Source of the DNA: Actinomycetota bacterium
Lineage (GTDB): Bacteria > Actinomycetota > AC-67
Assembly (NCBI GenBank): GCA_040905475.1
Contig: JBBDRM010000012.1
Span: forward strand, 1-45,061
DNA: 45,061 nucleotides
Direction of reading: 5' to 3'
Within the stretch, counting starts at the first letter, position 1; each line of letters opens with the position of its first letter. Positions 607 to 5,380 of the stretch are shown here, piece by piece. The translations under genes and the position numbers were made by a program. The notes beneath the pieces are model-generated. The model saw nothing but the letters and a program-made list of their open reading frames with translations. It searched no databases and was not told where the DNA came from.

Positions 607-3351
607 CTAGTCCCTCCGCGACCCGGCGACGAGCCGGCCGGCGTCTCGGACCGCGAAGCGCGGGCGGAAGCGTCGAACCGGCTTTCCGGCGAGCGCGGCC
701 CGCACCGATCGCTGCTCCGCCGGATCGAGCTTGCCGCCGCGCCGGCCCGTGACGAAGAAAGTATCGACGGCTTCGCCGTCGCGGGTGGCGGCGGTCGCTT
801 GATGGATCTGCGCGCCGGCCCGGGCGAGCGATGCGGCGACGCGCGCGAGCAACCCCCGGCGGTCTGGCGCGCGGAGCTCGACGATCGTGTGCCAAGGCGA
901 GGCGCGGTCGTCGAATGCGACCGTCGCGTCGACCGGCTCGACCGGCGTTTCTGATTCGCCGTCGAGCGCGGCTGTGACCGCGCTCCTTAGCTCGTCCCAA
1001 TCCGTCCGCGGGCCGGCAGAAACCTGGAACACGTCGACGGCGATACCGCTCCGCCACGTGGAAACCACGGCTTCGTCGATCGAGATCCCCTTCGCGGAGA
1101 TCGCGCCGGCGACATCGGCGAGCGCGGCGCGCCGGTCGACGAACGCGAGGTGCAAGATCCATCGTCCGGGCTCGCCGTCCGGCTCGGCTTCGAGACGCAC
1201 TTCTCCGCGGACGGGGCGCGTCTCGGTCATGCGGACGTGCCGAGCGATCGCCGCGACGTCCTGCGAAAGGAGATACCGGCGCGGCGCGTCGGCCAGGTGC
1301 GCCCGGACCTCATCGCGGGGGAGGACTGGTTCCAGAGCGCGGCCGACCTCGTCGCGCCGGAGCTCGAGCAGATCCGACGCCGACGCATCCACCAGCTCAG
1401 GGTCCGACAGCACATCGGAGACGAGCTTCCACAGCTCGCGGATCGCTTCGCGCTGGGTCGGATCGGATGCACTCGCCGTCGCCAGCACGTACAGGCCGTC
1501 CGCCCGCTCCTTCGTCCCGATGTGGGACGCGATCTCGAGGACGTCCTCTTCGGCGCCGAGGTCGAGCCGGGTCGCCGCCGCGGGAAGGATGTGCCGTTCG
1601 GCCGTCAGCATGGCCGCCGTCTCGGCGTCCGCCGAGGGGAGTCCGATCCCCTTCGCGAAACGGGAGACTGCCTCCGGGCTCCCCCGCCCGTCGAATGCCC
1701 CGCGCGCCAACGCGCCGAGCACGACCAGGTCGCGCCTGTCCATCCGCTCCCACACCTCGACCGCCGGATCCTTCCCGGCTCGGATGAGAGCCGTCAGATC
1801 GGACAGCTCCTGCCACACGATCGCACCGACGGGATCCAGGTCGAACGGATCCCGGATCCGACGGCGTAAGGCCGCGTCGATCTCGGGGAGGAGGATCGCG
1901 ATCAGGCCGCTGAGCTCGAGGAACCTCCAGGAACGCCCGGAGCCGGCCAGCAGCAAAGCGACGAGCCGGCGGCGCAGGTCCTCATCCCAGATCACCGACT
2001 CGTCCGGCAACGCCGAGAGCCACGAGAGCAAGCGCCCGCCGGGACGCCGCGTGGCGCACGCGATCGCGGCGTCGAGCCCGATCCGCGCGGCCTCCTCGGT
2101 GGGCGGCTCTGCTCCCAGCATCGTCGAGAGCTCGACCGTCTCGGCGGTGATCTCGAGCCAGCCCCCGGGTGGCTCGATCGGAGATATCGCGGCCGTCGCC
2201 GCACGGCGGATGCGCCGCGTCCGCTCGCGAAGAAGTGGAGGCGTCGCGACGGTCGTCGCCAGCACCACTAGGATCAGCGCGGCGTGCTGCTGCGCGTCGA
2301 GGATCCCGCCGGACAGGCCGAGTGCGGCGAAGATCAGCCCGACCTCTCCGCGAGGGATCATCCCGATGCCGACCAGCAGACGGTCGCCTGATCCGCGCTT
2401 CATTCCGAGGCCGGCCACGATCTTCCCGGCGAAGCCGACGACGAGCAGCACGCCGGCGATGGCCATGGCCTTCGAGTCGGTGAACGCTCCGAGTTGGGTG
2501 TCGACCCCCATCGACAGGAAGAAGATCGGGATCAGCAGGTGGCCGAGTGGCGCCAGCCTCCGCTGAAGGTCGTCGGCGGCCGAGCTCGAGCCCACGGCGA
2601 CGCCTGCCACGAACGCGCCGACGATCGGGGCCAGCTTCGCCCACGACGCGACGCCTGCAAGCCCCAGCGCCAGGGCGACGCCGGCGACCAGCAGCGTGCC
2701 ATCGGCGCGTGCCCGTTCTGCGACCGCGGCGAGGCCGCGTGGAACGATCCAGTGAGCGACGGCGGTTCCGACGACCACGAACGCCAGCGCCGCCCCGAGC
2801 ACGCCGGCCGCGCCGGCCGCATCCAGACCGCCGCCGGTCGAGACCCGCAACACGATGGTGAGGATGAGTAGACCGATGACGTCGTCTGCGACCGCCGCTC
2901 CGAGCACGGTCCGGGCCTCGGGCGTGGTCAGGGCGCGCATATCCGCGAACACGCGGGCGGTTATGCCGACGCTGGTCGCCGTGAGCGCGGCGGCGAGGAA
3001 CAGTCCCGCGGATCCGTCGACACCCACCACCCGAACCACGGCCAGCGCTCCACCCATCGGTACGGCGACCCCGATAACGCCAACGCGGATGGAGTCCCCA
3101 CCGACGCTCCGGAGATCGGCGAGGTCCATGTGAAGACCGACCTCGAACAGCAACAGGATCGCTCCGAGCTCGGCCAGGAGCGAGAGGGCTTCGTCATGGT
3201 GCACGAGGCCCAGAAGCGACGGACCGATGATGATCCCCGCCGCAATCTCTGCCAGCACGGCCGGCTGGCGGAAGCGCTCCGCGACCTCGGCGGCGATCCG
3301 CGCCGCGACGAGGACGGCGAACAGCCGCAATAGGAGCGGCGCCGCATCCAT
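607..3351 (-). CDS. CPA2 cation/proton antiporter fused to a degenerate GlnD-like region with two ACT domains
   Basis: Residues 1 to about 380 are a Na+/H+ exchanger domain of the Kef/NhaS3 (CPA2) type, with about 12 hydrophobic segments and the paired aspartates of AVADDVIG in the ion-binding helix. Residues from about 420 to the end follow the order of the C-terminal part of GlnD (PII uridylyltransferase/uridylyl-removing enzyme). They comprise a helical and HD-like region, then a stretch like GlnD's RYLLS-x-D segment, then ACT domains at about 729-800 and 820-890. The nucleotidyltransferase domain is absent. The HD motif is lost: GlnD's LLHDIGKG position reads LARGAFDGRG here, and the usual HH is replaced by ERH. 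It is therefore probably a ligand-sensing pseudo-enzyme controlling the antiporter. It starts 5 bp after the winged-helix gene, so the two form an operon. Ion specificity and ligand (perhaps glutamine) are inference. Confidence 0.85.
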   Translation of the reverse strand: MDAAPLLLRLFAVLVAARIAAEVAERFRQPAVLAEIAAGIIIGPSLLGLVHHDEALSLLAELGAILLLFEVGLHMDLADLRSVGGDSIRVGVIGVAVPMGGALAVVRVVGVDGSAGLFLAAALTATSVGITARVFADMRALTTPEARTVLGAAVADDVIGLLILTIVLRVSTGGGLDAAGAAGVLGAALAFVVVGTAVAHWIVPRGLAAVAERARADGTLLVAGVALALGLAGVASWAKLAPIVGAFVAGVAVGSSSAADDLQRRLAPLGHLLIPIFFLSMGVDTQLGAFTDSKAMAIAGVLLVVGFAGKIVAGLGMKRGSGDRLLVGIGMIPRGEVGLIFAALGLSGGILDAQQHAALILVVLATTVATPPLLRERTRRIRRAATAAISPIEPPGGWLEITAETVELSTMLGAEPPTEEAARIGLDAAIACATRRPGGRLLSWLSALPDESVIWDEDLRRRLVALLLAGSGRSWRFLELSGLIAILLPEIDAALRRRIRDPFDLDPVGAIVWQELSDLTALIRAGKDPAVEVWERMDRRDLVVLGALARGAFDGRGSPEAVSRFAKGIGLPSADAETAAMLTAERHILPAAATRLDLGAEEDVLEIASHIGTKERADGLYVLATASASDPTQREAIRELWKLVSDVLSDPELVDASASDLLELRRDEVGRALEPVLPRDEVRAHLADAPRRYLLSQDVAAIARHVRMTETRPVRGEVRLEAEPDGEPGRWILHLAFVDRRAALADVAGAISAKGISIDEAVVSTWRSGIAVDVFQVSAGPRTDWDELRSAVTAALDGESETPVEPVDATVAFDDRASPWHTIVELRAPDRRGLLARVAASLARAGAQIHQATAATRDGEAVDTFFVTGRRGGKLDPAEQRSVRAALAGKPVRRFRPRFAVRDAGRLVAGSRRD

Positions 3352-3356
3352 GCCGG

Positions 3357-3674
3357 CTACCGCTCTTCGAGCGTGCCGGGCTCGACGATCCAGCCGCGGT
3401 TGCGGATATTCCTCACGAAGTCCCGCCCGATCTCACGCCGCAGGCCGGACAGGAGGACGTCGACCGACCGGCCTCGCGCAAGCCGAAGCGCCTCGGAAAG
3501 CTCGTCTCGGGACACAACGCGGTTCCTATTGGCGGCCAGGATCGCGAGGAGCTCGAGCTGGGAGCGCGAGAGGGTGAGAGCGCGACCGGCGAACTCGGCG
3601 CGGTAGCTCTCGACGTCTACCCACAATCTGCCGAGGACGATGGCCCCCATCGTGACCGGAGCCGCGTTCGTCAT
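3357..3674 (-). CDS. Stand-alone OmpR/GlnR-type winged-helix DNA-binding protein
   Basis: The 105-residue product consists almost wholly of a Trans_Reg_C winged helix: an N-terminal beta segment (GRLWVDVESYRAEF), the LTLSRSQLELLAILA helix, NRVVSRDEL, a recognition-helix region around RSVDVLLSGLRREIG, and the wing ending RNRGWIVEP. There is no receiver domain, so it is unlikely to be phosphorylated. The ATG at 3674 was chosen because it begins just before the domain and lies 6 bp from a -10 box, implying a leaderless mRNA. An upstream in-frame extension is possible but would cross the promoter and operator. It is followed after 5 bp by the antiporter-GlnD fusion and lies beside amtB. It is the best local candidate to bind the 11-bp-periodic operators, which also precede it (autoregulation). 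Target genes are inference. Confidence 0.8.
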   Translation of the reverse strand: MTNAAPVTMGAIVLGRLWVDVESYRAEFAGRALTLSRSQLELLAILAANRNRVVSRDELSEALRLARGRSVDVLLSGLRREIGRDFVRNIRNRGWIVEPGTLEER

Positions 3675-3734: not shown

Positions 3735-3806
3735 ATCTTTGTCGGACGAACCGGTGAAGCGACGCATCCTGCCAGCCGGTCCCGCGCCCCTGACTTGAGA
3801 AGCCAA

Positions 3807-3835
3807 GGTGGAGGAAGGACCATCCTTCCTCCACC
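3807..3835 (-). terminator. Hairpin terminator downstream of amtB
   Basis: A perfect 13-bp inverted repeat with a 3-nt loop lies 17 bp beyond the amtB stop codon. On the minus strand it is followed by a modestly T-rich stretch (TTGGCTTCTC). The stem is strong, but the U-tract is weak, as is common in high-GC bacteria. It would separate amtB from the winged-helix operon that follows in the same direction. Confidence 0.75.
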
Positions 3836-3851
3836 CTCGGCGTGCGCGTGA

Positions 3852-5297
3852 CTAGATCCTGGGATGCACCACGTCCGCTTCGGCTTTCACGCCGTTTCGT
3901 GCGGTCGCGATCGCCTCCGGCGTCGCGAGTGCCGTGGGCCCGAGGAAAGCTTCGGGGTATCCCCACATGCCGTGCTCGCCGATATCGAGGCCCTCGATCT
4001 CCTCTTCACGACTCACGCGAAGCCCGACGGTGGCCTTGATCAATCCGAAGACGATCGCCGCGCTCACGATTGTCCAGCCGGCAACGGCGACCACCCCGAG
4101 CGCCTGCGTCCCGAGCTGGCCCAAGCCATGACCGTATGCGAGACCAGGAGTGACGTTGGTCAGTCCTTCCACAAGGCGCGGGGCGGCGAAGATCCCAACG
4201 GCGAGCGTGCCCCACACACCATTGATCGCGTGTACGGAGACCGCCCCGACAGGATCGTCCACGCCGGCCTTATCGAACGCCTTGACCGCGAAGTACACGA
4301 GCACGCCGCCGATGCCTCCGATCACGACGGCCGCCCAGGGTTCGACGAACGCACACGGAGCGGTTATCGCGACCAAGCCGGCCAGGGCACCGTTCGCGGT
4401 CATGCCGACGTCCGGCTTCCTGCCGAACATCCATGCGGTGAACATGGCCATGATCGCTCCGGCGGCCGCCGCCAGGTTCGTCGTCACGGCGATGTGCGCT
4501 GCGAGCTCGTTCGCCGCCAGGGTGGAGCCGGGGTTGAACCCGAACCAGCCGAACCACAGGATGAACACGCCGAGGAAGGCCAAGGGCATGCTGTGCCCGG
4601 GGATCGCGCGAGGCTTCTTGTCGGGACCGTACTTGCCGATCCGCGGGCCGAGCATGATCGCGCCGACCATGGCCGCCCATCCGCCGACGGAATGCACGAC
4701 GGTCGAGCCGGCGAAGTCGAGGAATCCTCGCGTTGCGAGCCAGCCTCCACCCCAGATCCAGTGCCCGGCTATCGGATAGATGAGGCCCGAGATGAGGCCG
4801 CTGTACAGGATGTACGCCTTGAACTTCGTTCGTTCTGCCATGGCTCCCGAAACGATGGTCGCCGCTGTTCCGGCGAACACCACCTGGAAGATCCACTTCG
4901 CGGAAAGCGGCGGGGTCGCCCACGAAAGCGAATCGAAGGTGCCCTCTCCACCGCTGAGGAACCAGCCGCTCGTTCCGAAGAGCGCGTTCCCGGCTCCGAA
5001 CATCAGCGCGAATCCGACCGCCCAGAACGCGATGGATGACATGCCGAAGTCCATCAGGTTCTTCATCACGATGTTCGCGGCGTTCTTCTGTCGCGTGAAC
5101 CCAGCCTCGACCATCGCGAATCCGGCTTGCATGAAAAAGACCAAGAAGGCCGCCAACAGGGTCCAGACCGTATCGATCGCGATTGTCTCCGCCGACGGTC
5201 CCTCGGCCCCCTGCGCCCATGCAGCGATGGGGGATGCCATCAAGAAGACGACCGCGGCTCCCCCCAGCACGAGCAACCTGCGCTTGCGTGTGCCCAT
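3852..5297 (-). CDS. amtB: Ammonium transporter
   Basis: The 481-residue protein is an Amt/Rh-family ammonium channel. It begins with a cleavable-looking signal segment (about residues 1-28), as usual for Amt proteins, followed by the Amt domain with about 11 membrane segments. The pore twin-histidine positions are recognisable in VHSVGGW and SVHAINGVWGT, and the family motif EAGFTRQKNAAN is present. The cytosolic tail keeps EGLDIGEHG, the conserved region needed for PII-dependent gating in the family. No glnK (PII) gene follows it, unlike in most amtB operons. The start is supported by GGAGGTCGG immediately before the ATG. An operator array and -10 box lie 30-83 bp upstream, so nitrogen-dependent transcription is likely. 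Confidence 0.96.
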   Translation of the reverse strand: MGTRKRRLLVLGGAAVVFLMASPIAAWAQGAEGPSAETIAIDTVWTLLAAFLVFFMQAGFAMVEAGFTRQKNAANIVMKNLMDFGMSSIAFWAVGFALMFGAGNALFGTSGWFLSGGEGTFDSLSWATPPLSAKWIFQVVFAGTAATIVSGAMAERTKFKAYILYSGLISGLIYPIAGHWIWGGGWLATRGFLDFAGSTVVHSVGGWAAMVGAIMLGPRIGKYGPDKKPRAIPGHSMPLAFLGVFILWFGWFGFNPGSTLAANELAAHIAVTTNLAAAAGAIMAMFTAWMFGRKPDVGMTANGALAGLVAITAPCAFVEPWAAVVIGGIGGVLVYFAVKAFDKAGVDDPVGAVSVHAINGVWGTLAVGIFAAPRLVEGLTNVTPGLAYGHGLGQLGTQALGVVAVAGWTIVSAAIVFGLIKATVGLRVSREEEIEGLDIGEHGMWGYPEAFLGPTALATPEAIATARNGVKAEADVVHPRI

Positions 5298-5326: not shown

Positions 5327-5380
5327 ACCATAACGGGCGCCTGTTTCATCCCTGTGTCATCGCCGTTACGACCGCGTAAA
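5327..5380 (-). promoter_or_regulatory. Operator A (GlnR-like) plus -10 box of amtB
   Basis: In the direction of amtB the half-sites are TTTAC (5380-5376), GTAAC (5369-5365), GACAC (5358-5354) and GAAAC (5347-5343), each separated by exactly 6 bp. TATGGT (5332-5327) follows after a 10-bp gap and is a plausible -10 box, 29 bp from the ATG. The order matches the published actinobacterial GlnR consensus (GTnAC, GAAAC, GTnAC, GAAAC) with one mismatch in each of the first three half-sites and none in the last. Its centre, near -41, fits a class II activator site. Confidence 0.72.

Follow-up and report, generated by a model that had tools for sequence, protein, structure and literature searches.

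The stretch of DNA analysed here (the window; 45,061 nucleotides from contig JBBDRM010000012.1 of an Actinomycetota bacterium) carries on its minus strand an open reading frame of 914 codons (3351..607) with no internal stop. As supported by full-length homologues, the 914-aa product combines a CPA2 antiporter domain (residues 1-385; 2197..3351) with a degenerate GlnD portion, which comprises a linker and a dead HD-like region (residues 386-705; 1237..2196) followed by tandem ACT domains (ACT1, residues ~715-800, and ACT2, residues ~805-890; 682..1209). On the same strand and upstream of this fusion gene lies a 481-aa amtB-type ammonium transporter gene (3852..5297), identified by its match to Ammonium_transp (E=1.9e-134) and by a TIGR00836 score above the cut-off. 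The two genes are not directly adjacent. They are separated by a winged-helix ORF of 105 aa (Trans_reg_C without a receiver; 3357..3674, minus strand), the stop of which lies 5 bp before the fusion ATG, and by a strong, terminator-like hairpin (3785..3851, minus strand; -35.5 kcal/mol, z -3.95) that has no T run and was not called by a T-run scan. The position of this hairpin 3' of amtB suggests that amtB and the fusion gene may be separate transcripts.

The transport domain was assigned by Pfam Na_H_Exchanger on residues 18-374 (E=1.7e-62; 211.9 bits against a cut-off of 26.2) and by the NCBIfam CPA2 model TIGR00932, whose match (E=1e-53, 182.6 bits) stayed under its cut-off of 238.3. Its best solved relative was NapA, the Na+/H+ antiporter of Thermus thermophilus (PDB 4bwz and 5bz2; E about 1e-61), to which the likeness extends over the whole transport domain, whereas the deposited NapA chains have 385-394 aa and lack a regulatory C-terminus. 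The site residues in the window (A125, T126, S127 and V128; D156 and D157; K310) are of NapA type, and the TM4/TM5/TM10 motif (ATSV, DD, K) is identical to that of NapA when aligned. Among the 44 aligned fusions over which residue conservation was counted, T126, S127, D156, D157 and K310 are invariant (44/44), as is E336, and motif position 4 is hydrophobic. Motifs of the ATSV-DD-K type are associated with electrogenic CPA2 clades, and position 4 is mostly Thr in the K+-selective CPA2 proteins described (PMC6181914). Under these CPA motif rules the NapA-type motif predicts an electrogenic exchanger of the Na+ type, and the antiporter is probably an electrogenic Na+(Li+)/H+ exchanger, as judged from sequence. 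Na+ selectivity, electrogenicity and a cytoplasmic location of the C-terminus are what knowledge of the family would lead one to expect.

The C-terminal part of the fusion (residues ~390-890) derives from GlnD. The NCBIfam GlnD model TIGR01693 matched residues 454-888 (E=5.9e-33) with 114 bits against a cut-off of 519, covering model positions 373-846 of 850; since the match starts at model position 373, the N-terminal nucleotidyltransferase part of GlnD is absent from the fusion, and the PF08335 profile gave no match to the protein. The six metal-ligand positions of the HD domain (H, H, D, H, H, D) are all occupied in each of the 32 GlnDs used for comparison, whereas the GlnD residue occurs at these positions in 0, 6, 41, 0, 0 and 8 of the 44 fusions, respectively. 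Thus, the four His residues are gone in nearly all fusions (0/44, 6/44, 0/44 and 0/44), and the last Asp is kept in 8/44. Just past the junction, P394 and W398 are present in 44/44 fusions and align with a conserved P and W of GlnD; we suspect that this is an artefact involving the EPN...GW segment of the nucleotidyltransferase domain, and nothing was drawn from that alignment.

Both ACT units are recognisable. Pfam ACT matched residues 822-871 (E=7.9e-9), and an AF2 model of the C-terminus built from two sequences displayed the beta-alpha-beta-beta-alpha-beta order in both units (pLDDT about 70-85). A Foldseek search with the C-terminal model gave no match at E<=0.001, and its best, weak matches were mostly ACT proteins. 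A PDB sequence search with the C-terminus returned nothing useful, and the full-length AF2 model, from a two-sequence alignment, was poor (pLDDT 45). D739 (42/44), D830 (44/44) and G833 (43/44) are retained in the fusions. A further set of residues in the ACT region is specific to the clade, namely W766 (44/44), P819 (44/44) and W820 (43/44); with one exception, the fusions and two standalone relatives have these residues in common, whereas T/R, D and F predominate at the corresponding positions of GlnDs. The Pro of the DRPG motif in ACT1 is mostly substituted in the fusions. Estimates of dN/dS from close pairs were low in every part (antiporter, about 0.03-0.07; HD-like part, 0.04-0.08; ACT, mostly 0.03-0.15), indicating purifying selection on all three. 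What the first-pass annotation had read from the letters of this gene was largely upheld: one frame joins a CPA2 antiporter (Pfam, TIGR00932) to a GlnD part whose relation to GlnD was recovered by profile search, the nucleotidyltransferase is missing, the HD residues are replaced, and two ACT domains are retained, as judged from the Pfam ACT match, the AF2 secondary structure and the conservation of D830 and G833.

The same fusion was sought in other genomes and was found repeatedly. The closest genome with it is G001 (JAIVGO010000138.1, Actinomycetota bacterium isolate MAG113), an independent MAG of the window's family that encodes a 905-aa homologue with 52% identity over the full length. 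Two of the five genomes examined in the window's class contain the fusion, and two further cases, both in family f23, came to light among 397 sampled genomes of the phylum. Within f23, antiporter and GlnD-like part occur in one frame in 62 of 201 genomes, some of them cut by contig ends, and the fusion extends to at least nine further families of the class of f23 (f16, f70, f80, f81, f83, f88, f95, f106 and f111). Among the matches listed, a plasmid search gave only unrelated CPA antiporters at no more than 37% query coverage, none reaching 80%.

The location beside amtB, on which the first-pass annotation had relied, proved to be a conserved linkage: in 18 of 26 re-fetched fused loci, and in the window, no more than about 2.1 kb separates the fusion from an amt gene of the same strand, which is downstream of the fusion in f23 and upstream of it in G001 and the window. 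Loci without an adjoining amt belong mainly to genera g115 and g240; in two others amt is incomplete or the contig stops. In many loci glnK, at times together with the genuine glnD, comes after. A homologue of the winged-helix ORF stands beside amt in G002, and a degraded fragment of it was found in G001. The suggestion that fusion and amtB are under the same kind of operator did not hold. GlnR-like tandem half-sites occur upstream of amtB (5343..5369, minus strand) as two pairs, which are weak and do not exceed the number expected by chance in the window, and the zero-mismatch match there is not independent evidence because the search pattern was partly shaped on that site. No GTNAC-N6-GAAAC pair at one mismatch or fewer was found upstream of the fusion in the window, and the regions upstream of 43 fusion genes contained three GlnR-type pairs against 2.34 expected, no excess. 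Directly behind the fusion, duplicated amt/glnK clusters were observed at five loci (L114, L116, L117, L118 and L123), all with two glnK copies and four with two different amt types.

A tree of the C-terminal region separated all fusions, together with two standalone relatives (from G044 and G406), from all GlnDs with a support of 1.0, indicating descent of the fusion from a dead GlnD paralogue. Contig 147 of the host encodes a complete GlnD within an amt-glnK-glnD cluster, which makes the fusion an extra paralogue. The standalone dead GlnD of G044 (L034 9529-10941, G044:C20) is a 470-aa protein with the HD-like region and both ACT domains, is encoded away from amt and was not found in two other genomes examined of the same order; it could be an intermediate or the product of a later split. 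Genes resembling a ROK kinase and FAD-linked oxidases lie next to it. The tree of the antiporters placed an unfused antiporter, that of G002, as sister to the fused clade (support 0.914); this antiporter adjoins amt and a gene reading as glutamine synthetase, suggesting that the linkage to nitrogen genes may predate the fusion.

Two shortened forms, one keeping the HD-like region only (genus g172, 593 aa) and one with no C-terminal domain (g205), nest inside the fused clade and therefore represent secondary losses. Seven ACT-less antiporter loci have amt within 1.4 kb, and ACT-less variants occur in PII-containing genomes only (21/21). Antiporters of 593 aa that end before ACT, with an apparent degenerate HD-like region, were observed at L119 5137-6918, L120 4366-6147 and L138 3022-4803, each time in a genome that has PII. 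At L131 3153-6419 (G501:C90), a frame of 1088 codons stays open from antiporter and HD-like region across what looks like intergenic DNA and on into amt, which is probably due to chance and possibly a read-through fusion.

The fusion persists in genomes that lack the cascade from which its sensor descends. Had the GlnD-like part acted through PII, its disappearance along with PII would be expected. In f23, however, the fusion was present in 43 of the 148 genomes with PII and in 19 of the 53 without it (odds ratio 0.73; P=0.39, a descriptive value only, as the genomes are related and some are incomplete). Ten of the PII-lacking genomes with the fusion (G188, G145, G418, G419, G448, G459, G472, G485, G505 and G516) are at least 90% complete and have no PII match, no GlnD other than the fusion and one Amt each. 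In the small PII-less genomes examined (g115, g240), the fusion lies away from amt. Its persistence without GlnD and PII favours direct sensing of a metabolite and agrees with the first-pass view that the protein senses rather than modifies PII.

We therefore regard as the most probable account, with moderate confidence, a NapA-type antiporter carrying a GlnD pseudoenzyme and gated directly by an amino acid bound to the ACT domains, plausibly glutamine. At the cytoplasmic end of the antiporter, the HD domain would now serve as a helical coupling element devoid of catalysis and the ACT pair as a metabolite sensor; binding of the amino acid would change the ACT-HD arrangement and thereby the antiporter activity. 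More tentatively, and as a possibility somewhat short of the probable, the protein may be a glutamine-gated Na+/H+ antiporter that couples membrane energetics and pH directly to nitrogen status and that, once streamlined genomes had lost the GlnD-PII cascade, remained as their sole GlnD-derived sensor. GlnD is regulated by glutamine (PMC4285133), and glutamine is the leading ligand candidate because the ancestor was a glutamine sensor. Transport by bacterial Amt is electrogenic (PMC10433425). Na+/H+ exchange would have to keep step with the uptake and assimilation of ammonium, both of which move charge and protons, and we propose this as the reason why the fusion sits with amt and often glnK. 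At low amino acid levels the antiporter might be switched off, saving membrane potential for Amt, the direction being a guess. Ligand identity, gating and sign of control are all things that we infer. In the several lineages that lost ACT and kept the antiporter beside amt, gating would be dispensable.

The same gated antiporter might respond to a metabolite other than glutamine, whether an amino acid or not. Many amino acids are ligands of ACT domains as a class, and the presence of W766, P819 and W820 in or beside the ACT domains, together with the replaced DRPG Pro, suggests that glutamine may not be the ligand. Against a different ligand, which we consider unlikely, speak the descent from a glutamine sensor, the linkage to ammonium genes and the conserved D and G positions of ACT. 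A C-terminus that senses nothing and only helps the antiporter dimer to assemble or to stay stable is less probable still. Dimerising C-terminal domains are common, and repeated losses of the ACT and HD-like parts have left the antiporter at the amt locus, but the near-invariant ligand-loop residues and the strong purifying selection over ACT are not what such a role would lead one to expect.

Very doubtful is the proposal that PII (GlnK) docks on the GlnD-derived pseudo-HD/ACT region and would thereby switch the antiporter as GlnK switches AmtB. PII is the substrate of GlnD (PMC4285133), many f23 genomes have glnK clustered with the fusion, and the ACT-less variants are confined to PII-containing genomes; against this, the fusion is about as frequent without PII as with it, and its retention in 19 genomes without detectable PII, ten of them checked to be at least 90% complete and also without GlnD, means that PII docking cannot be the general mode, as which it was rejected. 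Equally doubtful is an antiporter that moves NH4+ or K+ instead of Na+ and acts as an ammonium relief valve beside Amt; the location at amt fits such a role, and some CPA2 proteins, such as Bacillus AmhT, are reported to export NH4+/K+, but the site motif ATSV-DD-K is that of the Na+-type electrogenic NapA and not of the K+ type. Finally, that the join is an assembly artefact or a frameshift is next to impossible, although the window is a MAG-like contig, and was rejected since the same uninterrupted join, with its invariant post-junction P394 and W398, recurs in G001, f23 and other families, dozens of genomes in all.

If the amino acid-gated antiporter is the correct reading, it would constitute a direct link from nitrogen status to ion and proton exchange without PII, and a signalling enzyme would have become a transporter's regulatory domain. 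This reading would offer a testable explanation of how bacteria coordinate Na+/H+ exchange with ammonium uptake, for which lineages without PII and GlnD that still keep the fusion's sensor provide a natural experiment. The HD-like region and ACT-ACT pair are shared with GlnD, whereas the fusion has no nucleotidyltransferase, has lost the HD ligands, is membrane-tethered and persists without PII. Among ligand-gated transporters, the CPA2 K+ efflux systems KefB/KefC likewise carry a C-terminal cytosolic ligand-sensing module. In Kef this module is a nucleotide/glutathione-responsive RCK domain, whereas here it is a GlnD pseudoenzyme with ACT domains; the ion site of the fusion is of NapA type, and homology to Kef over the transport domain is weaker (E about 1e-11). 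Kef systems respond to methylglyoxal adducts, a parallel to the methylglyoxal-synthase-like gene observed near the fusion in PII-less genera (L107 2896-3339 and L109 3047-3472). The AmtB-GlnK pair resembles the proposed arrangement in having a transporter at the same locus under nitrogen status, but in that pair the channel is plugged by a PII protein of its own gene, whereas the sensor of the fusion is covalently attached and PII is not needed.

A full-text literature search for antiporter, ACT domain and GlnD returned no paper, which is weak evidence of absence as it covered open-licence papers only. Fusion to a CBS, EIIA or Usp domain places other transporters under allosteric control by that soluble domain, according to a review (PMC10710835) in which the term 'ACT domain' was not found. 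Transporters that bear a fused allosteric domain, as these proteins do, are thus already known as a kind, and what is new is the use of a GlnD pseudoenzyme with ACT domains in that place. Another fused antiporter, combining Na_H_Exchanger with a Usp domain, was observed at L037 5986-8577 (G044:C178).
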